Assembly (NCBI GenBank): GCA_944326305.1
Contig: CALVDL010000001.1
Location: forward strand, 186,001 to 250,000
DNA: 64,000 nucleotides
Direction of reading: 5' to 3'
From: an uncultured Bacteroidales bacterium
GTDB lineage: Bacteria; Bacteroidota; Bacteroidia; Bacteroidales; UBA932
The number at the start of each line of letters is the position of its first letter. Positions within the stretch are counted from its first letter, which is position 1. Below are positions 44,581 to 63,295 of this stretch, one piece after another. Below the pieces are notes generated by a model that was given only the letters and a program-made list of their open reading frames with translations, did not search any database and had not been told where the DNA came from. Made by a program: the position numbers and the translations under genes.

Positions 44581-44677
44581 GGGTAAGTCATACACGACCA
44601 GCTCCCTCTGAATTCCCCCAGGACCGGAAGGTAGCAAGGGTAGGAGGTCGTAGCGGTGCGATGTATCAAGCTTACCC
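44581..44677 (+). ncRNA. ffs: signal recognition particle RNA (4.5S type)
   Basis: About 97 nt. Ends GGGTAAG (44581-44587) and CTTACCC (44671-44677) pair to close a single long hairpin. The conserved domain IV core is visible: CCCCCAGGACCGGAAGGTAGCAAGGG with a GGAA tetraloop (written here in short: CCAGG, GGAAGG, AGCAAGGG). It binds Ffh. A T run (44678-44684) terminates it. Only about 20 bp separate it from rfbA. Confidence 0.93.
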
Positions 44678-44684
44678 TTTTTTA
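44671..44684 (+). terminator. 3' end of SRP RNA with T run
   Basis: The closing stem strand CTTACCC followed by TTTTTTA acts as an intrinsic terminator. rfbA begins at 44698. Confidence 0.7.
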
Positions 44685-44697
44685 TTTCCATAAACTC

Positions 44698-45600: not shown

Positions 45601-45619
45601 ACTGCCATACACTACAGAA

Positions 45620-46198
45620 ATGAATATCATACAGACAGATATACCCGGTGTGCTCATCATCGAGCCCCGCATCTTCGAGGACCCGCGGGGCTATTTCTTC
45701 GAGTCGTTCTCCCAGCGGGACTTCGACGCCAATGTCAGGACAGTGCACTTCGTCCAGGACAACGAGAGCAAGTCCGGCTACGGCGTCCTGCGCGGCCTCC
45801 ATTTCCAGAAGCCGCCATATACCCAGAGCAAGCTCGCGCGTGTGATACGCGGGACGGTCCTCGATGTGGCGGTGGACATCAGGCGCGGGTCCCCGACATT
45901 CGGGAAGCATGTCGCCGTCGAGCTGAGCGGCGAGAACCACAGGCAGTTTTTCGTCCCGAGGGGGTTTGCCCACGGGTTCAGTGTCCTGAGCGAAGAAGCC
46001 CTCTTCCAGTACAAGTGCGACAATTTCTATGCACCCCAGAGCGAGGGCGCCCTTGCATGGGACGACCCGGACCTCGGCATAGACTGGAAGCTCCCACCGG
46101 AGAGTGTGGTCCTGTCCGAGAAGGACCGCCGCCACCCCCGCCTGAAGGACGCCGGCTGGCTGTTCGACTACGGGACGGACTACTATTCAGACCTTTAA
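45620..46198 (+). CDS. rfbC: dTDP-4-dehydrorhamnose 3,5-epimerase
   Basis: 192 residues, cupin fold. Epimerises C3 and C5 of dTDP-4-keto-6-deoxyglucose. EPRIFEDPRGYFFESF, QDNESKSGYGVLRGLHFQ (catalytic histidine), VDIRRGSPTFGKHVAVELS and FVPRGFAHGFSVLS are canonical. The ATG at 45620 follows rfbA by 19 bp; an in-frame ATG at 45566 inside rfbA is less likely. Confidence 0.97.
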   Translation: MNIIQTDIPGVLIIEPRIFEDPRGYFFESFSQRDFDANVRTVHFVQDNESKSGYGVLRGLHFQKPPYTQSKLARVIRGTVLDVAVDIRRGSPTFGKHVAVELSGENHRQFFVPRGFAHGFSVLSEEALFQYKCDNFYAPQSEGALAWDDPDLGIDWKLPPESVVLSEKDRRHPRLKDAGWLFDYGTDYYSDL

Positions 46199-46226
46199 CC
46201 TCACTGACGCCAGACAATATAGAGCC

Positions 46227-47141
46227 ATGAACATATTAGTGACAGGGGCCAACGGCCAGCTCGGAAACGAGATGCGGATTGTCAGCCGTGAGACGGATGA
46301 CAGGTACATATTTTCGGACATAGTTCCGGCAGAGGGTGAGGAGACCATCATACTCGACATCACTGACCCGGTCCAGGTGGCCGCGGCGGTGAAGGAGCAC
46401 GGCATACGCTGCATAGTGAACTGCGCGGCCTATACCAATGTGGACAAGGCCGAAAGTGAGGAGGCCCTGTGCCGCAGGCTCAACGCCGACGCCCCGAAGA
46501 TCCTTGCGGAGGCGATGAAGGCTGCCGGAGGTCTGCTGGTCCAGATATCTACGGACTATGTATTCGGCGCCGACCCGTACAACACCCCGTGCCGAGAGGA
46601 CCAGACGGGTATCCCGACCGGGGTGTACGGCAGGACGAAGCTCGAGGGCGAGCGGAATATCACAGCCACCGGCTGCGACCATGTGATCATCCGTACGGCA
46701 TGGCTCTACTCCGAATTCGGACGCAACTTCGTGAAGACCATGCTCTCTCTGACATCCACCAGGCCGCAGCTGTCTGTGGTCTTCGACCAGACGGGCACCC
46801 CGACCTACGCATATGATCTTGCAGAAGCTATCAAAACAGTCCTGGCCGACTACCGGAAGGAGGACCCCCGCCACGGATACAGCAGGAACGGGATCTACCA
46901 CTATTCCAACGAGGGGGTCTGCTCCTGGTATGACTTTACAAAGATGATCGCCGAGTACAGCGGACATACAGACTGCGAGATTCTTCCGTGCCACAGCAGC
47001 GAGTTCCCGAGCCCGGTCATCCGCCCGTCATATTCTGTGCTGGACAAGACCAAGATCAAGCGGACGTTCCATATAGGCATCCCTTACTGGACCGACTCCC
47101 TGAAACGCTGCCTGCGCAATCTGGGGGAATACCGTCCGTGA
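46227..47141 (+). CDS. rfbD: dTDP-4-dehydrorhamnose reductase
   Basis: 304 residues, extended short-chain dehydrogenase. Final step to dTDP-L-rhamnose with NADPH. NILVTGANGQLGNE (nucleotide-binding), STDYVFGA and YGRTKLEGE (catalytic Tyr/Lys) are visible. It has an insertion relative to the shortest forms, and lies 28 bp after rfbC. Confidence 0.96.
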   Translation: MNILVTGANGQLGNEMRIVSRETDDRYIFSDIVPAEGEETIILDITDPVQVAAAVKEHGIRCIVNCAAYTNVDKAESEEALCRRLNADAPKILAEAMKAAGGLLVQISTDYVFGADPYNTPCREDQTGIPTGVYGRTKLEGERNITATGCDHVIIRTAWLYSEFGRNFVKTMLSLTSTRPQLSVVFDQTGTPTYAYDLAEAIKTVLADYRKEDPRHGYSRNGIYHYSNEGVCSWYDFTKMIAEYSGHTDCEILPCHSSEFPSPVIRPSYSVLDKTKIKRTFHIGIPYWTDSLKRCLRNLGEYRP

Positions 47142-47182
47142 ACCGGACCTGAAAGTGTGTGTGACAAATAAAATACAAGACA

Positions 47183-48367
47183 ATGGACAATGTACGCAAT
47201 ATCCTGATCACCGGCGGAGCCGGGTTCATCGGGAGCCATGTGGTGCGCCTGTTCGTCAACAGGTATCCCGGCTACAGGATCATCAACCTCGACAATCTCA
47301 CCTATGCGGGCAACCTGGCCAACCTCAAGGACATAGAGGACAGGCCGAACTACACATTCATAAAGGCAGACATCTGTGACTACGAGACAGTGCGCAAAAT
47401 CCTGCGGGAGTACCGTGTGGACGGGATCATCCACCTGGCCGCGGAGAGCCATGTGGACAGGAGCATAAAGGACCCGTTCACATTCGCCAGGACCAATGTG
47501 ATGGGCACCCTGACGCTGCTCCAGGCCGCGAAAGAGTACTGGGAGCCGTACGGGTGGCGTCTGCCTGTGTCCTGTCCTGACGGAGGGGAGCAGCAAGGAA
47601 CCGGAACCGTCCCGTGCCGTTTCTACCATATCTCCACGGATGAGGTTTACGGCGCCCTCGAGATGACATGCCCGGAAGGGACGGATTCCCCGTTCACCAC
47701 TAAGGCCTCGTCGGCGCATCACCATGCCTACGGGGATGAGTTCTTCACCGAGGGGACCAGATACCAGCCCCACAGCCCGTATTCCGCATCGAAGGCGGGG
47801 AGCGACCACTTCGTGAGGGCGTTCCATGACACATACGGACTGCCGACGATAGTGACTAACTGCTCGAACAACTACGGTCCTTACCAGTTCCCGGAAAAGC
47901 TCATCCCGCTGTTCATCAACAATATCCGTCACCGCAAGCCGCTCCCTGTCTACGGGAAGGGAGAGAATGTCCGTGACTGGCTCTATGTGGAGGACCACGC
48001 GAGGGCGATAGACCTCATCTTCCATGAAGGCAAGACAGCCGAGACGTACAATATCGGGGGCTTCAATGAATGGAAGAACATCGACATCGTCAAAGTCCTG
48101 ATCAGGACGGTGGACAGGCTTCTCGGCAGGCCGGATGGTGCCGACATGGACCTGATTACCTATGTGACCGACAGAAAGGGGCATGACATGAGATATGCCA
48201 TCGACTCGAGGAAGCTGCAGCGGGAACTGGGCTGGGAGCCGAGCCTGCAGTTCGAGGAGGGCATAGAAAAGACGGTGCGGTGGTATCTTGACCACCAGGA
48301 CTGGCTGGACAATGTCACCTCGGGCGACTACCAGAAATATTATGACAATATGTATAGGGACCGGTAG
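47183..48367 (+). CDS. rfbB: dTDP-glucose 4,6-dehydratase
   Basis: 394 residues. Converts dTDP-glucose to dTDP-4-keto-6-deoxyglucose with bound NAD+. ITGGAGFIGSH at 9-19, STDEVYGALE (active-site Asp/Glu), YSASKAGSDHFV (catalytic Tyr/Lys, about 195-206) and NNYGPYQFPEKLIP are diagnostic. An internal insertion (about 130-190, rich in His and Gly) is longer than in E. coli RfbB, as in many Bacteroidota versions. Last of the four rhamnose genes, 41 bp after rfbD. Confidence 0.97.
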   Translation: MDNVRNILITGGAGFIGSHVVRLFVNRYPGYRIINLDNLTYAGNLANLKDIEDRPNYTFIKADICDYETVRKILREYRVDGIIHLAAESHVDRSIKDPFTFARTNVMGTLTLLQAAKEYWEPYGWRLPVSCPDGGEQQGTGTVPCRFYHISTDEVYGALEMTCPEGTDSPFTTKASSAHHHAYGDEFFTEGTRYQPHSPYSASKAGSDHFVRAFHDTYGLPTIVTNCSNNYGPYQFPEKLIPLFINNIRHRKPLPVYGKGENVRDWLYVEDHARAIDLIFHEGKTAETYNIGGFNEWKNIDIVKVLIRTVDRLLGRPDGADMDLITYVTDRKGHDMRYAIDSRKLQRELGWEPSLQFEEGIEKTVRWYLDHQDWLDNVTSGDYQKYYDNMYRDR

Positions 48368-48430
48368 GCCCCTATACAATAATAGGAATTTCAACTGTCT
48401 GAATTTCAGCGGATAGGGTCAGAATATACC

Positions 48431-48462
48431 GCCATCCCGGACAAATATGTGTCCGGGATGGC
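48431..48462 (+). terminator. hairpin after the rfb operon
   Basis: GCCATCCCGGACA (48431-48443) pairs with TGTCCGGGATGGC (48450-48462), a 13-bp perfect stem. The following T tract is weak (TTCTGTTG), so termination may be partial. Confidence 0.55.
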
Positions 48463-48483
48463 TTCTGTTGACGGAAAAATACC

Positions 48484-48491
48484 TATATTTG
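48484..48491 (+). promoter_or_regulatory. -7 box of the capsule operon
   Basis: TATATTTG, a perfect TAnnTTTG, about 250 bp before the first capsule gene. No -33 TTTG at normal spacing. Confidence 0.5.
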
Positions 48492-48497
48492 CACCGT

Positions 48498-48742
48498 GTG
48501 TAGTGAAATGATGGAAACAAGTGCAGTGTGTGTAATGTGTGCAAACCGATTCTCCCATCATTCGCGTTTTTGATATAAAAGCCCTTTAGCACAGCGAAAA
48601 GGGGAGTGATATTTTAGACTTGTTGCTGTATAGTGCAAGTGGAGATTATCAGTAGGGCTAAATCCAAAGGATTGATCATGCAGAAGTTACGTTTCTGTGT
48701 GACCTTTTTTGTATCCTTTTTCGACCTAAATATCAATCGGTT
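48498..48742 (+). promoter_or_regulatory. long 5' leader of the capsule operon
   Basis: About 245 nt without a coding frame. It can form AATGATGG (48507-48514) with CCATCATT (48555-48562), followed by CGCGTTTTTG, a possible early terminator, and then CCCTTT/AAAGGG (48582-48603). A UpxY antiterminator is encoded in the same operon, so antitermination in this leader is a reasonable inference. Confidence 0.4.
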
Positions 48743-50155
48743 ATGACACAAAGAACTAATCCGAAGGAACTGATGTACTTCAAGCTGCCGACCTATGCCG
48801 CTGACCTTCTGGTACATTTTTCCGTGTTCTATCTCAGCCTGTATTTCTCTGGTCTGCTTTCCGGGCTTCAGGCTGCCGTCATGAGAGGAAACGGCACTTC
48901 CATTATCCTGTTCCTCAGCTATGTATGTGCAATCACCATTGTCCCTATCCGGTTGAACGAGAGGCGTATTGCGAACTATATGGTCCTTCTCAGGGCATTG
49001 GCCCAGACAGTGTTGACGGTCTCGATTTTCATCTTTGTCACGAGTGCGGTGTACAAGATAACCCCCGTGAAGTTCTATCTCCTGTACGGGGTCACGGCCG
49101 GGATCCTGATCATAGTGCTGCATCTGCTCATAAGGTATATTATCCTGTGCATCCGGAGGTCCGGGAAGAACAGGCTCAATGTGATAATGGTCGGGGCCGA
49201 CGAGCGTCTGGTGGCTATCAGCCGGGAGATGAAGGCCGGATACGGGGTGCACGGGTACAATGTGCTCGGCTTCTTCACCGACAAATACAGCGACCAGGTG
49301 CCGGACGGGGACAGGGTGCTGGGCGGAATAGAAGATGTATTCCCGTATCTTGCAGGCCATCATGTGGACGAGCTCTACTGCGGGATCAACCCTTCATCGA
49401 ACGAGCAGCTGACCTGCAGGCTGATACACGAGGCGGAGAGCAGGTTCATCCAGTTCTGGTTTGTCCCGAACATGAACGGATACCCGCGGAGGAGGATGCA
49501 CTACGAGGAGTTCGGGAGCGTGACCACGATCAGCCTCAGGGAGGAACCTCTGAACAACCCGTTTATGAAGCTTCTGAAAAGGACGGAGGACATAGTGCTC
49601 TCCGGCCTTTTTCTTTTGACTGTATATCCTTTTGTCTGGGCGGTGGTGGCTGTCGGAATCAAGCTGACATCCCCGGGGCCAATACTGTTCCGGCAGGTAC
49701 GTACAGGATACAACGGGAAGGGCTTCAAGTGCCTGAAGTTCCGTTCAATGAAAGTCAACGCGGATTCGGACAAGGTACAGGCGACGGAGGATGACCCCCG
49801 CAAGACCAGGTTCGGGGATTTTCTCCGGAGGACATCAATAGACGAGCTGCCGCAGTTCATCAATGTGTTCAAGGGGGACATGTCAATAGTCGGTCCGCGT
49901 CCGCATATGGAGTTCCATACGGAGATGTACTCCGAGCTCATTTCGGAATACATGGTCCGCCACTTGGTCAAGCCGGGGATTACCGGATGGGCGCAGGTGA
50001 ACGGCTGCCGCGGCGAGACCAAGACGGTCGAGCAGATGAAGGAACGGGTGGAGCATGATATCTGGTACATAGAGCACTGGTCTCCGATGCTGGATATAAA
50101 GATAGTCCTGATGACCGTCCGCCAGGTCCTCGGAGGCGACAAACAGGCATATTGA
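48743..50155 (+). CDS. initiating polyprenyl-phosphate glycosyl-phosphotransferase (WcaJ/WbaP-like)
   Basis: 470 residues. Transfers the first sugar phosphate to undecaprenyl phosphate to begin the repeat unit. Four membrane segments lie in residues 15-135, then a CoA-binding-like domain (MVGADERLVAISREM), a further membrane segment (about 283-305), and the bacterial sugar transferase domain with KCLKFRSMKVNAD, RRTSIDELPQFINVFKGDMSIVGPRPH and GITGWAQVNGCRGE. The donor sugar is not predictable. First gene after the long leader; the UpxY gene follows after 4 bp. Confidence 0.93.
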   Translation: MTQRTNPKELMYFKLPTYAADLLVHFSVFYLSLYFSGLLSGLQAAVMRGNGTSIILFLSYVCAITIVPIRLNERRIANYMVLLRALAQTVLTVSIFIFVTSAVYKITPVKFYLLYGVTAGILIIVLHLLIRYIILCIRRSGKNRLNVIMVGADERLVAISREMKAGYGVHGYNVLGFFTDKYSDQVPDGDRVLGGIEDVFPYLAGHHVDELYCGINPSSNEQLTCRLIHEAESRFIQFWFVPNMNGYPRRRMHYEEFGSVTTISLREEPLNNPFMKLLKRTEDIVLSGLFLLTVYPFVWAVVAVGIKLTSPGPILFRQVRTGYNGKGFKCLKFRSMKVNADSDKVQATEDDPRKTRFGDFLRRTSIDELPQFINVFKGDMSIVGPRPHMEFHTEMYSELISEYMVRHLVKPGITGWAQVNGCRGETKTVEQMKERVEHDIWYIEHWSPMLDIKIVLMTVRQVLGGDKQAY

Positions 50156-50159
50156 TAAA

Positions 50160-50705
50160 ATGGGAAATATCCCGGAACAGAACAGATGGTACCCCCTCCG
50201 CGTCACCTACGGGAGAGAGATGAAGCTTAAAGACAGGCTCGACAAGCTTCATCTTACCTCGTATATCCCAATGAGGTACAAAAACATGGTAAAAGACGGC
50301 AAGACCAGGCGTGTCCTTGCTCCGGCTGTCAGCAACCTCTGTTTCGTCTATGCCTCCAGAAAGGATATCGAGGAGCTCCGCACCAGGATGATGGAGACGC
50401 TGCAGTTCCATTTCATCTGGAACCGGGCCACATCCCTCCCTATCGTGGTCCCGGACAAGGCAATGGACGATTTCATCAAGGTCTCTTCAGCAGTGGATGA
50501 TGACATCATATATCTTTCCGAGGTATCCCCGTTGCTCCGGTCCGGCCAGAGGGTAAAGGTCAAGACCGGCCCTTTTGCCGGTGTAGAAGGAAGGATCATA
50601 CGAATCAAGAAGTCCAAGCGTGTAATGGTGGAACTCCCTGACATGCTGGCCGTCGCCACAACATACATCCGTCCCGAATGCCTTGAAGTCCTTGATGAAG
50701 AATAG
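50160..50705 (+). CDS. upxY: UpxY-family transcription antiterminator (NusG-like)
   Basis: 181 residues. An N-terminal NGN domain (RWYPLRVTYGREMKLKDRLD, SYIPMRYKNMVK, FVYASRKDIEEL) and a C-terminal KOW domain (VKVKTGPFAGVEGRIIRIKKSKRVMVELP) make a NusG paralog. In Bacteroides the UpxY proteins are encoded at the start of each capsule locus and prevent early termination in its own leader. Here it is second, after the initiating transferase. No UpxZ partner is seen. Confidence 0.92.
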   Translation: MGNIPEQNRWYPLRVTYGREMKLKDRLDKLHLTSYIPMRYKNMVKDGKTRRVLAPAVSNLCFVYASRKDIEELRTRMMETLQFHFIWNRATSLPIVVPDKAMDDFIKVSSAVDDDIIYLSEVSPLLRSGQRVKVKTGPFAGVEGRIIRIKKSKRVMVELPDMLAVATTYIRPECLEVLDEE

Positions 50706-50708
50706 AAC

Positions 50709-50792
50709 TGTCATCCCGAGCATTGCGCACCCTGTCATCCCGAGCGCAGCCTCCTGTCATTTCGACCGAGCGCAGCGAGCGGAGAAATCTAT
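50709..50792 (+). repeat. REP-like GTCATCCCGAGC repeats, cluster 3
   Basis: Two GTCATCCCGAGC units and one GTCATTTCGACCGAGCGC... GGAGAAATCTAT unit fill the 105-bp gap before the nucleotide sugar dehydrogenase gene. Confidence 0.75.
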
Positions 50793-50810
50793 AGAATAAA
50801 CCAGAAAAAA

Positions 50811-52067
50811 ATGAACAATAAAGAAAACATCCGCATCGCCGTCGCCGGCACGGGCTACGTCGGCCTGAGCATAGCAACCCTTTTGAGCCAGCACCACCGG
50901 GTCATCGCCGTCGACGTGATCCCCGAGAAGGTGGAAATGATCAACAGCCGAAAGTCCCCCATCCAGGACGAATACATAGAGAAATACCTGAGTGAGAAGG
51001 ACCTGGACCTGGTGGCGACCCTTGACGGTGCATCCGCCTACCGAGATGCCGACTACGTGGTCATCGCGGCGCCGACCAACTACGACCCGGTGAAGAACTA
51101 CTTCGACACGAGCCACGTGGAGGAGGTCATAGACCTGGTCATGAAGGTCAACCCCGATGCGGTCATGGTCATCAAGAGCACAATCCCGGTGGGCTACACC
51201 GAGGGCATCCGCCGCAAGACAGGGTCCGGGAACATCATCTTCTCGCCTGAGTTCCTTCGGGAGAGCAAGGCCCTGTACGACAACCTGTACCCGAGCCGTA
51301 TCATCGTCGGACGCCCTGAAGGAGACGGGCGTCTGGACCGTGCAGCGCACGAGTTCGCCTCCCTCCTGAAGGAAGGAGCCATAAAGGATGACATCGAGAC
51401 CCTTTTCATGGGCCTTACCGAGGCAGAGGCGGTGAAGCTGTTCGCGAACACGTACCTCGCCCTGCGTGTGAGCTACTTCAACGAGCTCGACACCTACGCG
51501 GAGATGAAGGGCCTGGACACCGCCGCCATCATCCGGGGAGTGAGCCTTGACCCGCGCATCGGAGACTTCTACAACAACCCTTCGTTCGGTTACGGTGGCT
51601 ACTGCCTCCCGAAGGACACCAAACAGCTCCTTGCGAACTACGCGGACGTTCCTGAGAACCTGATCCAGGCGATAGTGGACAGCAACCGCACGAGGAAGGA
51701 CTTCATCGCGGACAGGGTGCTCCAGAAGGCGGGCTTCTATGACGAATTCAACCACGGGGACTTCGGTCCCAACGAGGAGCGCAAATGTGTCGTGGGGATC
51801 TACCGCCTGACGATGAAGTCGAACAGCGACAACTTCCGCCAGAGCAGCATCCAGGGGGTGATGAAGCGCATCAAGGCCAAGGGCGCCGAAGTCATCATCT
51901 ACGAGCCGACCCTCGAGGACGGCAGCACCTTCTTCGGCAGCCTCGTGGTCAACGACCTGGAGCAGTTCAAGAGCCGTAGCCACATGATCATCACTAACCG
52001 TTACGAATCAAACCTCGATGATGTGAGGGACAAGGTGTATACGAGGGATATTTTCAGGAGAGACTGA
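50811..52067 (+). CDS. ugd: UDP-glucose 6-dehydrogenase-family nucleotide sugar dehydrogenase
   Basis: 418 residues. [18 protein letters not shown] (NAD-binding, about 9-26), [35 protein letters not shown] and the active-site cysteine in [14 protein letters not shown] (about residue 265) define the family; it oxidises C6 of a UDP-hexose to the uronate with two NAD+. UDP-glucose is the default substrate but UDP-GlcNAc or -ManNAc types cannot be excluded. It is flanked by REP-like clusters on both sides and its codons are distinctly GC-rich. Confidence 0.93.
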
Positions 52068-52103
52068 AGAAAGGTACTATATGGAAAACAAAAATCGAAT
52101 AAC

Positions 52104-52179
52104 TGTCATCCCGAAATTGTCTCCCCGCCTCTTTGTCATCCCGAGCGGAGGCGTAGCCGCAGTCGAGGGATCTGCAGAA
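52104..52179 (+). repeat. REP-like GTCATCCCGAGC repeats, cluster 4
   Basis: GTCATCCCGAAA and GTCATCCCGAGCGGAGGC... GTCGAGGGATCTG units, same orientation as cluster 3, just after the nucleotide sugar dehydrogenase gene and before the AT-rich module begins. Confidence 0.7.
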
Positions 52180-52224
52180 TAGAGAAGAATACTAGCCCAT
52201 TAAAAAATTCCAATCTTATACTTA

Positions 52225-53763
52225 ATGACAGATGTCGCTGCAAATAACAAGCGCATAGCGAAAAACACCCTGATGTTGTATATTAGGATGCTGCTGATAA
52301 TGGCGGTCAATCTTTATACGTCTCGTGTGGTACTGAATGCTCTGGGAGTTGAGGATTTCGGTATATATAATGTAGTAGGTGGAGTTGTTGCAATGTTTTC
52401 TGTCCTATCAGGCTCTCTTTCTGCTTCGATTACACGATTTATAACATACGAATTGGGAAAGGGGAATGAAGAAAGTCTAAAAAAAATATTTTCCTCATCC
52501 GTCACAATACAGATAGGATTGGCATTCCTCATTATCATATTAGCTGAAGCAGTAGGAGTATGGTTTTTGAATGACAAGATGAATATCCCGGACAGTAGAA
52601 TTGTAGCAGCCAATTGGGTATTTCAACTCTCGGTACTTACGTTCGTCATAAATCTGATAAGCGTCCCGTATAATGCGAGTATCATAGCTCACGAACGTAT
52701 GTCTGCATTTGCATATATCAGTATTCTTGAAGCCTTAGGTAAACTGGCTATTGCCTTTTTCATAACCATCTCACCTATAGACCGATTGGTCTTCTATGCA
52801 ATTTTGATGTGCTTAGTAGCGTTATGTATACGGTTTGTGTATGGAATCTATTGTAAAAGGCATTTTGAAGAGTGTACTTATCATTTCATTTTTGATACAG
52901 AATTGTTGAAACAGATGTTCGGCTTTGCAGGATGGAATTTTATCGGGGCATCCTCTGCGGTATTAAGGGATCAAGGCGGTAATGTAGTGATAAATCTATT
53001 TTGCGGACCCGCTGTAAATGCAGCGCGTGGTATCGCATTTCAAGTAGGAAATGCAGTCAATGGCTTTGTCTCTAATTTCATGACAGCATTAAACCCACAG
53101 ATAACCAAGTCGTATGCGGCAGGAGAGCGCGATTATATGATGACTTTAATACATCAGGGTGCCAGACTTTCATTCTATATATTACTACTGATTTCGCTTC
53201 CTGTACTGGTCAATACTAGTTATATACTGGCTTTTTGGCTTAAGACGGTTCCAGACCATACTGAATTATTTGTGCAGTTGGTGTTGGTATTTGCAATGGG
53301 CGAATCCATATCCAACCCATTAATAACGGCCATGCTCGCTACTGGCAATATAAGGAACTACCAGCTTATAGTAGGAGGATTACAGATGATGAATTTACCC
53401 GTCTCATATATCTTATTGCGTACGGGGTCGTTTCCGGAGGCAGTGATCATCGTGGCTATAATCATCTCCCAGTGCTGTCTTGCTGCACGCTTGTTTATGC
53501 TGCGTGGAATGATAGGCCTGTCAGTTAAGGGATATTTGAAGAAGGTCTATATTAATGTACTCACAGTGACGGTCCTGTCGGCCATTGTACCATTTTTGAT
53601 AGCGAGTCGGTTAGAAGATACATTTGTGAATTTTGTCTTATTGTGCTGTCTTTCCGTTGCATGTACAGGGCTTACTGTCTACTATGTAGGCTGCAATAAG
53701 ACAGAAAGGCGATTTGTGAAAAAAAAGATATATGCTATAAGGAATAAAATAAGCAAACGATGA
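52225..53763 (+). CDS. polysaccharide repeat-unit flippase (Wzx/MATE-like)
   Basis: 512-residue membrane protein with roughly 12-14 hydrophobic segments. RIAKNTLMLYIRMLLIMAVNLYTSRVVLNALGVEDFGIYNVVGG is a typical start for this export family, and FGFAGWNFIGASSAVLRDQGGNVVINLF is the second-half signature; it moves lipid-linked repeat units across the inner membrane. First AT-rich gene of the locus. Its TGA overlaps the next ATG (ATGA). Confidence 0.9.
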   Translation: MTDVAANNKRIAKNTLMLYIRMLLIMAVNLYTSRVVLNALGVEDFGIYNVVGGVVAMFSVLSGSLSASITRFITYELGKGNEESLKKIFSSSVTIQIGLAFLIIILAEAVGVWFLNDKMNIPDSRIVAANWVFQLSVLTFVINLISVPYNASIIAHERMSAFAYISILEALGKLAIAFFITISPIDRLVFYAILMCLVALCIRFVYGIYCKRHFEECTYHFIFDTELLKQMFGFAGWNFIGASSAVLRDQGGNVVINLFCGPAVNAARGIAFQVGNAVNGFVSNFMTALNPQITKSYAAGERDYMMTLIHQGARLSFYILLLISLPVLVNTSYILAFWLKTVPDHTELFVQLVLVFAMGESISNPLITAMLATGNIRNYQLIVGGLQMMNLPVSYILLRTGSFPEAVIIVAIIISQCCLAARLFMLRGMIGLSVKGYLKKVYINVLTVTVLSAIVPFLIASRLEDTFVNFVLLCCLSVACTGLTVYYVGCNKTERRFVKKKIYAIRNKISKR

Positions 53764-54912
53764 TTCAAATAATAGACAAATCACAGTGTTGCGGTTGTAC
53801 GGCATGTGCTAGTGTTTGTGAGATTGGAGCCATTACCATGCAAGCTGATGTTATGGGTTTTCTTTATCCTGTTGTTGATACCAATAAATGTGTAGATTGC
53901 GGTTTATGCGAAAAAGTGTGCGCATTTAACGATAATTATGACACCAGTCTGAACCTTCCAGAACCATATGTATACGGTGCTAGACACAAGGATATGGCGG
54001 AGGTAGAGACCAGCCGTAGCGGGGCGGCTTTTATTGCAATATCAGATTATGTCCTTGAACATGGTGGTGTAGTTTATGGCGCTGGGTATGCTGATCATTT
54101 CCGCGTGGTTCACAAACGTGCTACAACAAAAGATGAGCGGGATGAATTCAAAGGAAGTAAATATGTTCAGAGCGATATTCGCGGTATTTTCCGTCAGGTG
54201 AAGAAAGATCTAAAGGATGGACTGACTGTTCTGTTTTCAGGTACACCTTGTCAGACTGCGGGACTAAACTCATATATCGGGAAAAAACTCAGAGAACATC
54301 TTGTACTTGTGGATATAGTATGCCATGGGGTGCCTGGACCTAATCTTTGGCGGGACTATATAGATTATCTGGAAAAAAAGCATGGAAATAGAATATGTTG
54401 GGTTAATTTCCGTGATAAGCAAAAATATGGATGGACTGCCCATCACGAGACATTTAAATTTGAGGGGGGGGAATAAAATGAGTTTCACATATTTATTCTA
54501 TCAACATATAATGTTCCGTCCGTCGTGTGGGCGGTGCCATTATGCAAACACGAGGCGTCCAAGTGACATAACTATAGCTGATTTCTGGGGTTGGCAAAAG
54601 ACAGATCCGGATATCAATAAGGACGATAAGGGGGTATCTCTGATTCTTGTCAATACAGAGAAAGGACGGGAATTGTTTGAAAAAATAGAAGACCGTATGT
54701 ATGTTATTCCAGCAAAGCTCCAGAATTGTATGCAGCCAAATCTTCAGCATCCATCGGTTTTAAATCCGAGATTTAAAAAATTTGAATCTGATTATGAGCG
54801 TAAGGGTTTTGCATACGTCATGAAAAAATATGGAGAAGACAATTGGAAAACCAAATTGCGCAGATTTGCTGGAAGCGTTAAAAGGAGAATTAAACGATTA
54901 TTGGGATTATGA
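53760..54912 (+). pseudogene. FrhB-like (F420H2 dehydrogenase beta-subunit) iron-sulfur protein, frame broken at a G8 tract
   Basis: Two frames together give one 383-residue protein. The first (53760-54476) has two ferredoxin cysteine clusters (CCGCTACASVC and CVDCGLCEKVC) and SGTPCQTAGL, then stops after FKFEGGE. The second (from about 54475, ATG at 54478) continues SFTYLFYQH, FRPSCGRCHYANTRRPSDITIADFWG to the end. The break is at eight Gs (54464-54471); seven would restore the frame as FEGGNKMSF. Family members in capsule loci often neighbour pyruvyl transferases; their reaction is not settled. It may be a pseudogene, a phase-variable gene or an assembly error. The last codons overlap the next gene (ATGA). 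Confidence 0.85.
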
Positions 54913-56018
54913 AGAAGAAAATAGGTATACTGACATTTCATTGTGCTCATAATTATGGAGCTGTGTTACAATGTTATGCATTACAGGAAGTCCTTAAATG
55001 TAGGGGATATAATGTTAAAATCATTAACTACAGACCTAAATATCTTTTAAATCAATACAAAAAATTTTGCTTCAACCGTTTAATTTCCAGAAACCCTATA
55101 AGAATGGTAAAGATATGGATAAATGAAATTATGACAATTAATAAACGAAAAAAAAGATATGAAGCATTTCAAACCTTTATAGAGACAAGATTGAGTTTGA
55201 CACCTCCAGTTGAGGGAAAGAATATTCCTTCATCTTTTGATATATATATAATGGGAAGTGACCAAATTTGGAATCCTCAAATAACTAAAGGATTTGATTC
55301 TGTTTATTTTGGAGAATTTAGATTTCCTAAAAACGGAAAAAAATATATTGCTTATGCGGCAAGTATGGAAACATCATCTTTAAATCAGGAATCAAAAACA
55401 TTTTATAGTCGAGTATTAAAAAATTTTGATGCTATAAGTGTAAGAGAGAATACTTTTGCTCAATTACTGCAATCCTTGACAAATAAAAAAATAGAAACAG
55501 TTTTAGATCCGACTCTTTTGGCTGATCCTGCTATATGGGATTCAATAGTAAAACATCCATCCATAAAAGAACCTTATGTATTGGTTTATCAAGTAAGAAG
55601 AGATAAAAACACTAAAAGAATAGCTAATAATATTGCTAAACAGCTTCATGCAAAGGTGATAGAAATAACAGCTAATGTAAGTTGTAAACTAATGCGCAAT
55701 ACTTATCAAAGCTGTTCTCCAGAAGAATTTTTGGGATGGATTAAATATGCTAGTTGTGTAATTACTACTTCTTTTCATGGGACAGCCTTCTCCATTATTT
55801 ATAATAAATCCTTCTATTGCCTTAAATTGGGGAAAGGAGATACTAGGACTGCTTCATTATTGCAAGAACTTGAATTGGGAAATCGAATGATAGAACAGAC
55901 TTCATCTCCAAAATTCCAGTTAATCAATTATGAATATGTTAATGAGAAAATAATGATTTTACGAAAAAAATCCTATCAATTTTTATTTTCATCCTTAAAT
56001 ACAAATGAGGTGATATAA
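54909..56018 (+). CDS. polysaccharide pyruvyl transferase-family protein 1
   Basis: 369 residues. KIGILTFHCAHNYGAVLQCYALQ at the N-terminus, the central YIMGSDQIWNPQ, YAASMETSS and SCVITTSFHGTAFSIIYNK are family signatures; it adds ketal pyruvate to a sugar of the repeat unit using PEP. Its ATG overlaps the end of the FrhB-like frame, suggesting coupling. AT-rich. Some family members have other roles, so the pyruvyl assignment is by homology only. Confidence 0.88.
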   Translation: MKKKIGILTFHCAHNYGAVLQCYALQEVLKCRGYNVKIINYRPKYLLNQYKKFCFNRLISRNPIRMVKIWINEIMTINKRKKRYEAFQTFIETRLSLTPPVEGKNIPSSFDIYIMGSDQIWNPQITKGFDSVYFGEFRFPKNGKKYIAYAASMETSSLNQESKTFYSRVLKNFDAISVRENTFAQLLQSLTNKKIETVLDPTLLADPAIWDSIVKHPSIKEPYVLVYQVRRDKNTKRIANNIAKQLHAKVIEITANVSCKLMRNTYQSCSPEEFLGWIKYASCVITTSFHGTAFSIIYNKSFYCLKLGKGDTRTASLLQELELGNRMIEQTSSPKFQLINYEYVNEKIMILRKKSYQFLFSSLNTNEVI

Positions 56019-56167
56019 AAATGTGTAGTGATAATTTCAGGGAGTTGATTATATAGTCGTCATAATCGAATTAATAATAGATCTTATTTTGGGGAATTTT
56101 TAATTACAATAATGTCTTGTTTTAAAGAAAGTATTACGAAAGTTCGAACTAATTTTAACAGTCAGTA

Positions 56168-57169
56168 ATGGAGCATCCTAAAATTTCAGTTATTGTCCCC
56201 GTTTATAATGTAGAGCAATACTTACCTCGTTGTATAGATAGTATATTATCTCAGACATTTACTGATTTTGAATTGCTCCTTATTGATGACGGAAGTTTAG
56301 ATGATTCAGGAAAAATTTGTGATAAATATGCGAAAAAAGATAATCGAGTAACAGTTTTTCATACAAAAAATAAAGGGGCAAGTGCAGCTCGTAATATTGG
56401 ATTAAATAATGCTAAAGGGTATTTTATTAGTTTTATTGATTCTGATGATTGGATAGAAAAAAATTGTTATCAAGATTTTTTTTCAGATAAGGATTTTATA
56501 TACGATATATATTTCCAAAATTATGTCTGTCATAATTATAATGGAACTGTTACAAAAAAAAAATTAAAATCTTTTTCTGTAAGAGAAGGCAATGTAGATG
56601 ACGTTATTTTTTATTTATTGCAAGAAAAAATGTTTGGATGGACATGGTTGAAATTATTTAGAAGTTCTATTATTAGAAAAGAGAATATACGGTTTGATGA
56701 AAATATATCTTTTCGTGAGGACCATCTTTTTACATTGCAATATTGTAGATATATAAAATCTATATATGTTCATCCTAATGCAAATTACCATTATTATATT
56801 TATAAAAATTCTCTTTCACATCGATCTTATGATCCCATAGAATTTATTAAGATATCAAATTTAATTTTAAAAGAATGTTCATATATTAAAGCAGAGGGAA
56901 TTTCTGAATATAAAGAATCTTTTTATTTATCTACATTATTTATGGCAGTTAAAGGTCTCTATTTAAATGGGAATACCTATGAAATACAAAAAAGATTAAA
57001 TATTATTAAGTTTTTTTTATCTTACTATTTTGCTCACAAGAATATTCGATCATTTTATAATAGAAGTAAGGATAGATATCTTTATATGTTGTTATGGCAG
57101 ACACGTTCTCCTCGTATAATAGATTTTATTTTACAAATAATGGGATATTTAACTCGAGTTTTAAAATAG
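56168..57169 (+). CDS. glycosyltransferase family 2
   Basis: 333 residues, cytoplasmic face. SVIVPVYNVEQYLPRCIDSILSQTFTDFELLLIDDGSLDDSG, GASAARNIGLNNAKGYFISFIDSDDW (DxD metal site) and FREDHLF are the GT-A signature motifs. Donor and linkage unknown. Very AT-rich with an A10 tract (56554-56563) and a T8 tract inside the frame. There is a 149-bp AT-rich gap before it, in which nothing else is recognised. Confidence 0.92.
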   Translation: MEHPKISVIVPVYNVEQYLPRCIDSILSQTFTDFELLLIDDGSLDDSGKICDKYAKKDNRVTVFHTKNKGASAARNIGLNNAKGYFISFIDSDDWIEKNCYQDFFSDKDFIYDIYFQNYVCHNYNGTVTKKKLKSFSVREGNVDDVIFYLLQEKMFGWTWLKLFRSSIIRKENIRFDENISFREDHLFTLQYCRYIKSIYVHPNANYHYYIYKNSLSHRSYDPIEFIKISNLILKECSYIKAEGISEYKESFYLSTLFMAVKGLYLNGNTYEIQKRLNIIKFFLSYYFAHKNIRSFYNRSKDRYLYMLLWQTRSPRIIDFILQIMGYLTRVLK

Positions 57170-57292
57170 GTGCTTTTATTAAATTAAAACAGTTATATAA
57201 TTTGAGATATTTGTGCTCGACAAGCTATGTGAGTTTGTGGGTTTGAAAGAAGTCATGGAGATTTAATATAAATTGAATATTATTTATAAAAT

Positions 57293-58540
57293 ATGGAATA
57301 TAATTCCACACGACATAAAAAAATTATATTTCTTTTCTATTGTGCTGTCATTTCTTGTATATTAGAATCTATCGTTGAGGAAATATTTGGGTTAGACTCA
57401 TTATCTTCAGTTTTATCTGTTATAGATGAATTATTTGTGTTAGGAAGTTGTATTTACACATGGTGTACATGCAGATGTGAAATAAAATATAATAAGTTAT
57501 TGCTTTTAATCTTATTATTTTGTGCAATAGGATTGTTAAGTTCTTTCCTTTATAGAGGAATAAATGTAGTGAGTTTTCTGGGGGCCTTTAATACAATTAA
57601 ACCATTATTATTGTTTTGGAGTTTTTCTTTACTAACTTTTAATATAAGTGATATAAATTATTTATTTAAACTGTTTTCTTTGATATTTCCTGTTATTATT
57701 TTTTTTGAATTTGTAGATATAATATGTCCATCTTTTAGAAGTTTGATTGGATTTAAGTATCAAATATCAGAAGAGCGTATGGGATTACGTTCTATAGCTG
57801 GAATAATGCCAAGGTTTACAATGGCTACGATTATGGGTGTATTATACTTCTATATTTATTGGTTTTATAAAAAAAATAAAATAAAAGCTTGGCTATCAGT
57901 TCCATTAATTTTATTCGCACTTAGAGTAAAAGACATTTTTGCATTTGTGATTTCAGCAGTTTTAGTTTTTAATAAAAAAGTTAGATTGAGAAATCTGTTT
58001 GGTGCTATAATAATATGCATGCTCATGTTTGTAAGCTATATAATTTATTTCCCAGAGCACTTTATGCGTTATTTTTCTGATGATGACGGCAACCAAGCAA
58101 GGACGGCTCTTAATCTTACAGGCATTGAGATAGCAAAAGATTATTTCCCTTTTGGGGTAGGTTTTGGAAAATTTGGTTCTCCGATATCACAACAATTCGA
58201 AAGTGAAGTCTATTATCAATATGGGATAAATAATATATATGGACTAAGTTATGAGCATAGTAATGCTTTTATGTCAGATACTTTTTGGCCAATGTTGTTG
58301 GGGGAAACAGGATTTATAGGAACATTAATCTATATATTTATTTTATTTGTTGTATTTTCCCCATTTGTGAAAAAATATATACATAACACAACAGATTTAA
58401 GAGTATGTCTTGTCGTTTCATTATTAATTTTCAATTTAATTAGTTCTATTGCAAAACCGACGTTAACAGGTCCTCCAAATTCTCTTTTATTATTTGGAAT
58501 AGCTGGACTTTTTTATCAACATTTAAAAACTGATAATTAA
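57293..58540 (+). CDS. O-antigen/capsule polymerase-like membrane protein (Wzy-type)
   Basis: 415 residues with about ten or more hydrophobic segments and a large external loop near residues 260-340 containing ARTALNLTGIEIAKDYFPFGVGFGKFG and HSNAFMSDTFWPMLLGETGFIG, the pattern of Wzy and related O-antigen ligases. It would join repeat units in the periplasm. Identification rests on topology, the late GETG motif and locus position, not on strong sequence identity. Its stop shares one base with the next ATG (TAATG). Confidence 0.8.
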   Translation: MEYNSTRHKKIIFLFYCAVISCILESIVEEIFGLDSLSSVLSVIDELFVLGSCIYTWCTCRCEIKYNKLLLLILLFCAIGLLSSFLYRGINVVSFLGAFNTIKPLLLFWSFSLLTFNISDINYLFKLFSLIFPVIIFFEFVDIICPSFRSLIGFKYQISEERMGLRSIAGIMPRFTMATIMGVLYFYIYWFYKKNKIKAWLSVPLILFALRVKDIFAFVISAVLVFNKKVRLRNLFGAIIICMLMFVSYIIYFPEHFMRYFSDDDGNQARTALNLTGIEIAKDYFPFGVGFGKFGSPISQQFESEVYYQYGINNIYGLSYEHSNAFMSDTFWPMLLGETGFIGTLIYIFILFVVFSPFVKKYIHNTTDLRVCLVVSLLIFNLISSIAKPTLTGPPNSLLLFGIAGLFYQHLKTDN

Positions 58541-59856
58541 TGAACTTATCAAATATTACTTATACTATCCACCATAATCTTTGTACTGGCTGTGGTATAT
58601 GTGAAAATGCTTGCCCTTTTAATGCTATAGAAATTGTAGTTAAGGAGGGTAGATTTTTACCACAAGTCAATGATGGATTATGTAAAAATGTTCAAGGATG
58701 CCATCGGTGCATAGATGCATGTCCTGGGGTTGGTGTTGATTTGTCCAGAATTGCTAACGAACAATTTTGTGACGAAGCAATAAAAACTGATAAGTGGGTT
58801 GGACGTTACATGAAATGCTTTGTTGGGCATAGTAATGATTATGATATTCGTTACCATTGCGCAAGTGGCGGTATGGTAAGTCAGTTCTTGATATTTTTGC
58901 TTGAAAAAAACTATATTGATGGGGCAGTAGTCACTGCTTTTGATCCAGACAATGAACTGCTGGTGCATTCGTATATTGCCCATAATCGAGAGGAGGTCTT
59001 ACACGCTAAGGGCAGTAAATATGCTCCGGTGTCATTGCATGGTATGGCTCAGGCTATTAAACAAGAATCAGGGTCTCGATTTGTTATTGTCGGATTACCG
59101 TGTCATATTCAAGGATTTAGAAAGCTGGAAAAGATAGATAGAAAATTTAAGGGAAAGATATTCGGTTATTTTGCTATATATTGTTCTTCTGGACGAACAT
59201 TTTATTTGACTGAACATGTGTTCAGAGAGCGCGGTATTCGTAAGGATGATTTGACATATTTTGCCTATCGTGACGAAGGTTGTCTGGGATCACTCGTTGC
59301 GAAGCAACGAAGAAGTATCAGGGTTGACAATAATAACTCTGAAACTTCTCTTTATAAAGAAGACGAAGTCTATAAAGAGAAGTATCAGAGTTATTATCAT
59401 CCGCTTCGTAGTTTCTTTGTACCTCGTCGTTGTCTGTTTTGTATTGATCATTATGGTGAGCTTGGTGATGTTTGTTTTGGAGATATTCATATTGAACCAT
59501 TTATTGAGGACAAGATAGGCGTTAATTCGATTGTTGTAAGGAAGCAGTTGTGGCTGGACCTCCTTATGGCAGCAAAAGATGAAATGTATGTTACATTGGA
59601 TGAGATAAGTGTAGAGACGTTGAATTCATCACAAGAGATGGCCGGAAAGAAGAAGGGGCGAAATAAAAACTTTATCGTATTAAACAAAAAGTTGAGACGT
59701 GCTGTGCCGGTATATGATGTATCACTACCGCAGAAAATAGGGATTAAAACAATATTAGATTATGCTCAAAATCGGATTCAGCAATTATTGGGTCGACATA
59801 AGAACCTGTGGTGGCTTATCAGTAAATTGAAAAAAGATACTTCACATTATAAATAA
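58540..59856 (+). CDS. FrhB-like (F420H2 dehydrogenase beta-subunit) iron-sulfur protein, intact
   Basis: 438 residues. Ferredoxin-type clusters CTGCGICENACP and CKNVQGCHRCIDACP at the N-terminus, then the FrhB beta-subunit domain (CASGGMVSQFL, GLPCHIQGFRKLEK, CLFCIDHYGELGDVCFGDIH). It is a full-length paralog of the broken gene 4 kb upstream. Role in polysaccharide synthesis is unproven; reductive modification of a sugar or pyruvyl donor is possible. Start and stop each overlap a neighbour by one base (TAATG junctions). Confidence 0.88.
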   Translation: MNLSNITYTIHHNLCTGCGICENACPFNAIEIVVKEGRFLPQVNDGLCKNVQGCHRCIDACPGVGVDLSRIANEQFCDEAIKTDKWVGRYMKCFVGHSNDYDIRYHCASGGMVSQFLIFLLEKNYIDGAVVTAFDPDNELLVHSYIAHNREEVLHAKGSKYAPVSLHGMAQAIKQESGSRFVIVGLPCHIQGFRKLEKIDRKFKGKIFGYFAIYCSSGRTFYLTEHVFRERGIRKDDLTYFAYRDEGCLGSLVAKQRRSIRVDNNNSETSLYKEDEVYKEKYQSYYHPLRSFFVPRRCLFCIDHYGELGDVCFGDIHIEPFIEDKIGVNSIVVRKQLWLDLLMAAKDEMYVTLDEISVETLNSSQEMAGKKKGRNKNFIVLNKKLRRAVPVYDVSLPQKIGIKTILDYAQNRIQQLLGRHKNLWWLISKLKKDTSHYK

Positions 59857-61025
59857 TGCGAGAATTATATCTAATCATTTTAATGGCCACCCTGTTTCTG
59901 TCTCAGATATCTGTAAAAGCTCAGACATACAATCATCGTAAACTTACAGACGAAACAGAGCTCTGGTTTGAAAGTTTATCGGATGCGGCAGCAGATGGAC
60001 AGCCTTATTATAGTCAATTTGACCAATATCCGGTACGGATACAAGATTCTTTAACATCGTCTTATACACATAAACTGGGTGTTGAATTATACGTTTATGG
60101 TGTAGATTTTTATTATGCTTCTGGAACATGGTTTTCACCCGAATATAAAGAGCGGTGCTGTAAAAATTTGATATCTGTTGTAAAAAATGCTTGGCGCAGA
60201 AATAGAGCCATACCATGTTTTTCATGGCATTTGGAGAATCCGTATGTACCATCCGACTTCGAAAACTATATGGGATGTCGTTATCGTTACGGGGTAAACG
60301 GGTATCCGGAAGAACATCGCTATGTTATAAAAGAGATATTGGAAAATAAAGGCAGTATATGTGGCTTTGGTCGTTATGGCGGTAAAGATAATGCAGTTGT
60401 CTATAAAAATCCGGCAGAATGGTTTGATGCCCGTTGTAAGGAGATAGCGGATATTATTCGGGAATTTAAAGATGATGAAGGGAATGTAATCCCAATTATC
60501 TTGAGATTATGGCATGAATGTGAGGATGATTGGCAATGGTGGGGCAAGAAATTCGTTACGGCAGAAGATTATAAAAGCTTTTTTCAATTAACTGTTTTGA
60601 AATTAGAACAGTATACAGATTCAAATAATATATTGTATGCATATGGCCCAGACAGATATTGGAATTCAGAAAAAGAATATATGTTACGTTATCCTGGGGA
60701 CGATTATGTTGATTTAATCGGTTTTGATGATTATTCTATTGGTACAGGATTAGAAAGTCTTGAAGATACTATAAACAGAGCAATAATTGTAAGTAAAATT
60801 GCTAATAAACATAAAAAAGTAGCTGCATTGTTTGAAACTGCCAATTCGAAAGAAGAGACCAGCGACATATTTTTTTGCGATTATCTTAAGCCGTTAATTA
60901 AAACTGATGGTGTTGACTTTGGTCTTATACAGCTCTGGTCAACTGGCAGGTTAAACACTCCGGATGAAATTTCCGACAGGGTCAAGTTTCTAGAGAGCGA
61001 TCTTGTCAAGACAGTGAATAAATAA
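59856..61025 (+). CDS. GH26-like glycoside hydrolase (beta-mannanase family), secreted
   Basis: 389 residues with a Sec signal (MRELYLIILMATLFLSQISVKAQ, cleavage about 23). The catalytic domain has LRLWHECEDDWQWWG, with a likely acid/base Glu 221, and a nucleophile candidate Glu 327 in AALFETANS, at the spacing expected for GH26. It is inside a biosynthetic operon, TAATG-coupled to the gene before, so it probably acts on the polysaccharide being made (trimming, release or clearing) rather than on diet. Exact substrate unknown; classification is by motif, not full alignment. Confidence 0.8.
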   Translation: MRELYLIILMATLFLSQISVKAQTYNHRKLTDETELWFESLSDAAADGQPYYSQFDQYPVRIQDSLTSSYTHKLGVELYVYGVDFYYASGTWFSPEYKERCCKNLISVVKNAWRRNRAIPCFSWHLENPYVPSDFENYMGCRYRYGVNGYPEEHRYVIKEILENKGSICGFGRYGGKDNAVVYKNPAEWFDARCKEIADIIREFKDDEGNVIPIILRLWHECEDDWQWWGKKFVTAEDYKSFFQLTVLKLEQYTDSNNILYAYGPDRYWNSEKEYMLRYPGDDYVDLIGFDDYSIGTGLESLEDTINRAIIVSKIANKHKKVAALFETANSKEETSDIFFCDYLKPLIKTDGVDFGLIQLWSTGRLNTPDEISDRVKFLESDLVKTVNK

Positions 61026-61029
61026 ACGT

Positions 61030-62202
61030 ATGATGGACGATAAGAAAAAGATAGGTTGTGTAATTGCTTATTCTGAAGGACACAACAACTATGGCACATC
61101 TTTGCAAGGTTATGCAATGTTAAAGAAGATCCAGGAATTGGGATATGATGTTGAAGTGATAAATTACGAAAAGCGCCTATCATTCTTGCAGAAGGTGAAA
61201 TTCGTCGTGAACGCTATAATGGCTGGAGAGTGGAAAAGTATTTTAGGACGGCTGACGATCAGATGGACTATAAAACGATATCCGAAATATTCTGCTGGCA
61301 TACAGGAAAGGACTCGTGCCGTAAATGCTTATAAGACAAAGAAATTATTACCATTATTTCACCAATACGTGGGGTATGAAGCATTGCATGAAGGTTCAAA
61401 AAATTATGCTGCAGTGGTTGTTGGAAGTGATCAGGTGTGGACTCCTATGAGCCTCCCAAATAAGTTCTTCAATTTGCTGTTTGTAGATGATAGTGTACGT
61501 AAAGTTGCTTATGCATCAAGTTTCGGTGTGTCAGAGATTCCTGCTTTTCAGCGCAAGGCGACAGGGGCCTATCTTGACAGGTTCTATAGAATTGGTGTGC
61601 GGGAGCAGCGTGGTAAGGAAATAGTTGAGGATCTTTCACATCAGAAAGCAATAGTTGTTGCGGATCCGACTTTACTGTTAAGCCGTGAGGAATGGGAGTC
61701 TGAAATAGTGGATGCTCATATTGATGAGACAGAACCTTATATCTTTTGCTATTTTTTAGGAACAAACCAAAATGCACGTCAGGCTGCCAATAAGTTGAAA
61801 AAACAGACTGGATATAAAATTATAACTATTCGTCATATGGATGAATATGTTCCAGAGGATGAGACATTTGGAGATAATGCCCCATATAATGTCGATCCAA
61901 ACGACTTTGTCAAATACATCAGCAGTGCGGCATATATATGTACTGATTCATTCCACTGTACCGTGTTTTCCATTATTTTTCATCGTCAATTCATGACTTT
62001 TTATCGGTTTGCAGAAGGAAGTAAGACGGGCAGGAACAGCCGTATCAGCAGTTTGTTCCATTTACTTGGTCTTAATGACAGACTTTATACTGGAAATATA
62101 GATGCCATTAAAAATAAGATTGATTATACGGATATTGATATCAGATTGGAAAAAATACGGAGAGACTCGCTTGCATTTCTTGAAAGCAGTCTGAATTCTT
62201 AA
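61030..62202 (+). CDS. polysaccharide pyruvyl transferase-family protein 2
   Basis: 390 residues. KIGCVIAYSEGHNNYGTSLQGYAMLKKIQELGYDVEVINY, VVVGSDQVWTPMSL, YASSFGVSEIP and AYICTDSFHCTVFSIIFH are family motifs. It is a divergent paralog of 54909-56018. Starts with two adjacent ATGs (61030 or 61033), 5 bp after the GH26 gene. It may add a second pyruvate or a related group. Confidence 0.87.
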   Translation: MMDDKKKIGCVIAYSEGHNNYGTSLQGYAMLKKIQELGYDVEVINYEKRLSFLQKVKFVVNAIMAGEWKSILGRLTIRWTIKRYPKYSAGIQERTRAVNAYKTKKLLPLFHQYVGYEALHEGSKNYAAVVVGSDQVWTPMSLPNKFFNLLFVDDSVRKVAYASSFGVSEIPAFQRKATGAYLDRFYRIGVREQRGKEIVEDLSHQKAIVVADPTLLLSREEWESEIVDAHIDETEPYIFCYFLGTNQNARQAANKLKKQTGYKIITIRHMDEYVPEDETFGDNAPYNVDPNDFVKYISSAAYICTDSFHCTVFSIIFHRQFMTFYRFAEGSKTGRNSRISSLFHLLGLNDRLYTGNIDAIKNKIDYTDIDIRLEKIRRDSLAFLESSLNS

Positions 62203-62217
62203 TTCCACAATACAATT

Positions 62218-63276
62218 ATGATAAGAGTACTTATGTGTGCCTCCTCTTTGAAAGTAAAAGGAGGAATGGTATCGGTTGTTAAAAATTATTTGGGGTATTC
62301 TGATTGGGGAGATGTGGAAATCACATACATCCCGACTCATATTGAGAGCAATAAATATGTATTAATTGCTTATTTTGTTATTGCGTATATACGTATTCTT
62401 TGGCTAGTATTTACAAAGAAGGTAGATATTGCTCATCTTCATGTGGCAGAGCGTGGCAGTTTTTATCGTAAAGCTTTTATTTTGCAGACGTTGAAACGTC
62501 ATGGCATAAAAGTTATATTACATCATCATGGGGCTGAATTTGATAAGTTCTATAATGGACTTTCAGAAAAAAGGCGGCAATATGTGAATGAGATACTGAA
62601 AATGGCCGATTTGAATATTGTGTTGAGTCAACGTCTTGTCCCAATGATTAAGCAAAAGTCTCCTGACGCAAAAGTGGAAATTTTATATAACGCTGTGGAT
62701 ATTCCTGTCTCTAATCCATATAACGAGAGTGCCAGAAATGTACTTTTCCTTGGTAGGCTTGGAAAAAGAAAGGGTACATATGATTTGCTGACCGCAATCA
62801 AAAAGATTGATGATAATTTACCGAAAGATGTGAGATTCTACTTATGTGGTGATGGTGAAGTAGAAGATGTGAAAAAGGAAGTAGAAGCCTTGGGGATTGA
62901 ACATCGGATAGCACATATCGGATGGACAGATGGACCGAAGAAAGCGTTTTTCATGACACAATGTATGATAAACGTTTTACCATCATATAACGAAGGTTTG
63001 CCAATGACTATACTTGAAACTATGGCACACGGAATACCAAATATCAGCACGTCTATTGCTTCAATCCCGGAGGTATTGCATGATGGCGAAAACGGGTTCT
63101 TGATTGAGCCGGGTGATGTGGATGCACTTTGTAGTCGGTTGTTGAAACTTGTTTTTGATGACGATTTACGAAAAAAGTTCAGTGTGGTGTCTTATAATTT
63201 GGTAAAAAAATCGTTCTCTTTACAGGTGCATATAAATAAGCTTAAAGAAATGTATAAAATACTGTTAGCGCACTAA
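62218..63276 (+). CDS. glycosyltransferase family 4
   Basis: 352 residues. GT-B fold: KVKGGMVSVVKNYL near the N-terminus, VLFLGRLGKRKGTYDLLTAI and EGLPMTILETMAHGIPNISTSIASIPEVL (E-x7-E donor site, about 258-286) are typical. No membrane segment. Donor and acceptor unknown. It lies 15 bp after the pyruvyl transferase gene. Confidence 0.93.
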   Translation: MIRVLMCASSLKVKGGMVSVVKNYLGYSDWGDVEITYIPTHIESNKYVLIAYFVIAYIRILWLVFTKKVDIAHLHVAERGSFYRKAFILQTLKRHGIKVILHHHGAEFDKFYNGLSEKRRQYVNEILKMADLNIVLSQRLVPMIKQKSPDAKVEILYNAVDIPVSNPYNESARNVLFLGRLGKRKGTYDLLTAIKKIDDNLPKDVRFYLCGDGEVEDVKKEVEALGIEHRIAHIGWTDGPKKAFFMTQCMINVLPSYNEGLPMTILETMAHGIPNISTSIASIPEVLHDGENGFLIEPGDVDALCSRLLKLVFDDDLRKKFSVVSYNLVKKSFSLQVHINKLKEMYKILLAH

Positions 63277-63295
63277 ATTCTAATATGCATATCAT

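Follow-up and report, generated by a model that had tools for sequence, protein, structure and literature searches.

An FrhB-like gene of a Bacteroidales capsule locus is interrupted midway by a run of eight Gs that is very probably a simple-sequence contingency locus subject to slipped-strand phase variation, caught here in its OFF state. Phase variation predicts that such a tract is kept, that its length runs through the reading phases and that copies in the OFF state do not decay. Each of these predictions is borne out in a set of 16 genomes, in support of the candidate switch that had been proposed from the sequence alone. Slippage fits the data far better than error or decay, and we infer both that slippage is the cause and that the switch is reversible. 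During replication, the tract would gain or lose a G by slipped-strand mispairing, and its length would decide whether the last 144 codons of the gene, which encodes an FrhB-like iron-sulfur redox protein, are read in frame. Translation in the OFF phase represented by this assembly would end after codon 238 and leave the FrhB catalytic domain without its second half, while the ON phase would give a protein of about 383 aa acting in the capsule locus, likely in a redox step tied to the downstream pyruvyl transferase. Cells of one clone would then differ in capsule chemistry, through a presumed effect on the glycan.

The G8 tract and the gene that it splits

The window, i.e., the whole 64-kb stretch of DNA that was analysed, holds no other G/C run of at least eight, and one other run reaches seven (features are collected in Table 1). 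The AT-rich surroundings remarked on earlier agree with the 35% GC of this part of the locus. G7 matches in the window, overlapping or single, number 3 against 13.4 expected from dinucleotide shuffles, so that long G runs are generally avoided. The upstream frame of 238 aa contains both Fer4 and FrhB_FdhB_N (Pfam) and stops 5 nt past the G8, just as the sequence-only reading had it. That the same family continues in the neighbouring frame with no other defect is equally confirmed, as FrhB_FdhB_C profile positions 3-75 are matched before the tract and positions 89-142 after it, in different frames, and the downstream frame runs for about 145 codons to its end with no further stop. The matches to FrhB_FdhB_N and FrhB_FdhB_C pass the curated cut-offs. 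Located near residue 236 of about 384, the tract is mid-gene and not at the gene start, and it has the make-up of a poly-G contingency locus: a homopolymer of at least about 7 within a coding frame, with the frame set by tract length.

Table 1 Features of the capsule locus in the window and SusC-type genes with G tracts elsewhere in the genome
Feature	Position	Strand	Remarks
Surrounding capsule locus	44656..63276	+	rhamnose (Rml) genes, UDP-sugar dehydrogenase, glycosyltransferases, two pyruvyl transferases
Bac_transf initiating transferase	within 44656..63276	+	domain match
NusG/KOW UpxY-like protein	50160-50705	+	domain match
Flippase-like MatE protein	52225..53763	+	directly upstream of the FrhB-like gene
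FrhB-like gene, N-terminal part	53760..54476	+	Fer4, FrhB_FdhB_N, first half of FrhB_FdhB_C; ends just past the tract
G8 tract, proposed slippage site	54464..54471	+	read directly; 6-9 G at the equivalent site in 15 other genomes
TAAAATGA directly 3' of the tract	54475..54482	+	stop for each out-of-frame phase and possible restart ATG
FrhB-like gene, C-terminal part	54480..54912	+	second half of FrhB_FdhB_C, other frame; begins at the post-tract ATG
Polysaccharide pyruvyl transferase	54909..56018	+	PF04230, E 7e-42; ATG overlaps the FrhB-like stop (ATGA)
Wzy-like protein	57293-58540	+	Wzy_C match just under the cut-off
Second FrhB-like gene	58540..59856	+	intact, without G tract
SusC-type TonB-dependent receptor genes	L099, L102, L104, L106, L109, L110, L111, L114, L116, L118		G8-G9 at start

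The model of an in-frame relative (L014; mean pLDDT 89.9) has fold matches among F420-dependent enzymes and the chlorophyll reductase HCAR (8riu, 8rja, 7npa and 5dqr, Z 19-27). Both Pfam domains and the fold are shared with the FrhB/FdhB family (F420 hydrogenase beta subunit, Fsr, HCAR), but the protein belongs to a bacterial capsule-locus branch with 15-21% identity to the solved members. The tract encodes a loop around residues 237-246, one of the least confidently modelled parts of the core (pLDDT 66), which varies in length among relatives; it is a tolerant loop between two invariant cysteine pairs, C164 and C188 before the tract and C257 and C260 after it. By analogy with the family, these four cysteines would bind the FrhB-type iron-sulfur cluster. 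As a stop at the tract removes the C257/C260 pair, the OFF product should be inactive.

The split gene had also been assigned to a capsule locus, correctly so: with a NusG-like antiterminator and flippase, polymerase-like, sugar and transferase genes, the region is of the UpxY type known from Bacteroidales, and the FrhB-like gene lies between the flippase and a pyruvyl transferase. The arrangement recurs, in that an ORF of about 512 aa, the size of a flippase, is found 5' of the FrhB-like gene in most tract-bearing relatives, and a pyruvyl transferase is next downstream in 7/9 relatives scanned for the next gene. Our best guess is that the FrhB-like protein performs a redox reaction connected with pyruvylation or with a neighbouring sugar. 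GC content falls from 53% over the first 52 kb to 35% in 52000-64000, and the closest kin of the gene are found in Prevotella/Phocaeicola-type genomes (84%), whereas the best match in a sample of the window's own family reaches 63%; the capsule region 52000-64000 was therefore likely acquired horizontally. Judging from the named relatives of the FrhB-like gene, the source organism is probably a gut commensal.

Conservation, length and phase of the tract in relatives

A homologue search of 84,980 species genomes yielded 80 loci, the closest of which, together with two cases from whole-genome searches, make up the tract-bearing set (n = 16 including the window). In all 16, the tract occupies one and the same codon position of the FrhB-like gene and consists of 6-9 G, and it is kept at the same spot in relatives of other genera, in either state. 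Nine are in frame at the tract and seven, including the window, are out of frame; the six other out-of-frame genomes represent both out-of-frame phases. ON and OFF copies are scattered over the tree, with at least 5 changes. Against the slippage model it counts that G8 is short for a fast switch and that the tract of two of the 16 genomes (L016 and L136) is interrupted by a single A, where slippage should be slower.

DNA identity is 60-84% among the 16 homologues compared, two of which are tract-less. Where residues are shared outside the tract, only 43% of codon pairs match, and GGG accounts for 14% of the codons for glycine; the tract is therefore no by-product of codon usage. Over the 13 homologous loci that protein similarity identified (about 10 kb each, 129 kb), 11 of the 18 G/C runs of at least 7 fall at the tract site, for which a simple binomial gives about 1e-33, a figure that ignores shared ancestry. 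The gene is broken at the site in 0/19 close tract-less relatives vs. 7/16 tract-bearing ones (p 0.0017, relatedness ignored), and all such simple statistics on relatives are inflated by relatedness. In the out-of-frame copies, the parts of the gene on either side of the tract are both still conserved. The C-terminal part of the window's OFF copy retains a mean identity of 65.8% to the others, as compared with 57-70% for in-frame copies. Set against its nearest relative, it has synonymous changes in 55 codons and replacements in 36, so that most differences are synonymous, as they are in the in-frame copies. Such an undecayed C-terminal part argues against an old pseudogene. The picture is that of a contingency locus, with a tract kept beyond codon usage, varying in length and phase, and OFF alleles that are otherwise intact.

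Some observations on individual relatives can be added. L091, which belongs to the window's own family, carries an extended GA dinucleotide repeat where the tract would be (about 2190-2230), and the gene is out of frame; it is an exception among the tract-less relatives, and comes from a 560-contig draft assembly in which the flank is partly duplicated. A GA repeat in place of poly-G would be convergent. In L015, a second G8 (4650-4657), in frame, lies in the neighbouring acyltransferase gene of that relative's capsule locus.

Other readings of the frame break

The post-tract stop and ATG could turn slippage into a switch between fusion and fission, in which ribosomes would restart and a separate C-terminal polypeptide would be made whenever the tract is out of frame. 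Restart could preserve a two-part enzyme or merely keep the pyruvyl transferase translated, and it would refine the slippage model, not replace it. The ATG is present in 15/16 copies, within TAAAATG in most, at a position where Met is rare in tract-less relatives, and the next gene overlaps by ATGA. However, L021 has ATA and L012 lacks the TAA, the common Lys-Met residues may be inherited loop sequence, and the four putative cluster cysteines would be split over two chains, and we consider this refinement unlikely.

Considerably less probable still is programmed ribosomal frameshifting or transcriptional slippage, by which some full-length protein would be made at every tract length and the length would tune its amount. 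G8 is a possible slippery site, and the synonymous sites just 5' of it are among the most conserved of the gene, but the tract differs freely in length and phase from one relative to the next, unlike a fixed signal, 9/16 copies are simply in frame, and the RNA downstream of the tract has no unusual structure that could act as a frameshift signal (z -0.5 against mononucleotide shuffles). An internal Bacteroides-type promoter (TAAATTTG just 5' of the tract) was also considered and rejected, the match being missing in several tract-bearing relatives and no upstream element being visible by eye.

The sequence-only reading had seen its main alternative in an assembly error, the true tract of this genome having an in-frame length. 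The assembly is indeed a draft of 41 contigs, G tracts are error-prone and their lengths in draft assemblies can be off by one (PMC9187656), and a one-base error is possible in this single genome. Nevertheless, the same tract occurs in independently assembled genomes at the DNA identities given above, six more genomes are out of frame at the site in both possible phases, and the SusC genes of the same genus provide a second line of evidence; the conserved, variable tract stands even if the length call in the window is wrong. Such an error is, like frameshifting, highly improbable. That a frameshift ended the gene for good and left it to decay is the least credible reading of all, for the gene, though out of frame in this assembly, has no other defect, its C-terminal differences from the nearest relative are mostly synonymous, its C-terminal identity lies within the in-frame range and the degeneration elsewhere that had been named as the mark of a fixed pseudogene was not found.

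Other G tracts of the genome and comparison with known systems

The FrhB-like tract is one of 36 G runs of at least 8 in the genome, and at least 10 of these lie at the starts of SusC-type genes vs. 0.24 expected (42 SusC genes; P about 5e-14). For this count of ten each frame was read individually; the automatic SusC tally relied on crude motifs and skipped many ORFs, and statistics for the genus use only the set chosen by homology. Most of the SusC tracts fall within the signal peptide, at its end or immediately ahead of the carboxypeptidase-like domain, and in L099 and L106 the signal peptide is out of frame with the SusC body. When the SusC genes of the other species in the genus are selected by homology alone, 6/7 G runs of at least 7 fall in the N-terminal sixth (P 1.5e-4). 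With its G8, L099 of this genome is out of frame, whereas the counterpart in a sister species is in frame with G9. A further SusC tract, L119 (about 2994-3001, - strand), lies deeper inside its gene than the others; it is G8 and open, and its equivalent L212 in G1235, a relative in the same genus, is G9 and broken. The two sequences are 99.7% identical (7 mismatches in 2017 aligned nt), the single G being the only indel in 2 kb. Three other shared tracts are of equal length, and in G1235, which is near-identical at several loci, there was no match to the capsule pyruvyl transferase.

Tracts also occur in other kinds of genes. The hybrid two-component regulator of L117 (Reg_prop, HisKA, Response_reg) is divided between two frames by a G9 (3001-3009), and in-frame G8 tracts are found in lipoprotein-like, BACON and DUF3575 genes (L100, L105, L108 at 9647, L124, L107 at 5913 and L112 at 3001). 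The G9 of L103 (2993-3001) lies outside any long ORF and is kept in two other genomes of the genus (L215 and L228), with flanks 73-75% alike.

It seems reasonably likely that this Bacteroidales genus, probably of gut commensals, possesses a poly-G phasome of several loci, with slippage switching SusC nutrient transporters and a capsule enzyme independently of one another. If so, a repertoire resembling that of Campylobacter would exist in bacteria whose known switches have so far been DNA inversions, and some capsule and SusC genes that look "broken" in gut genomes would represent one phase of a switch and not pseudogenes. A capsule-gene poly-G switch common to several genera, along with about ten SusC tracts in one genome, can be tested in public reads. 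Tools that seek inversions are blind to homopolymer slippage. The literature that we found presents Bacteroidales phase variation as inversion of DNA, and a single indel in a run of four Cs is on record for a polysaccharide locus of B. fragilis. Searches of the open-access literature gave no account of poly-G switching in either SusC genes or the capsule genes of Bacteroidales, an absence that is weak evidence.

Poly-G slippage itself is already known from Campylobacter and Neisseria and, among gut commensals, from Bifidobacterium (PMC9187656). Campylobacter strain NCTC11168 has 29 loci with G/C tracts of at least 7, and tracts of this size within the reading frames of surface-glycan genes are the feature in common with the present case (PMC4965091); Campylobacter, however, belongs to another phylum, and the tract described here is a candidate for slippage in the middle of a gene for an FrhB-like redox protein. 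The sortase-pilus switch of the gut commensal Bifidobacterium breve is similar in that G-tract length decides on the fusion of two ORFs, but it involves G11-G12 in Gram-positive pilin genes, where the mixture of lengths was measured (PMC9187656). The invertible promoters of Bacteroides (Mpi) have the same target, capsule loci with UpxY-type regulators, and differ in mechanism, promoter DNA being inverted there and a homopolymer within the coding frame being the switch proposed here (PMC3090145, PMC11868660).
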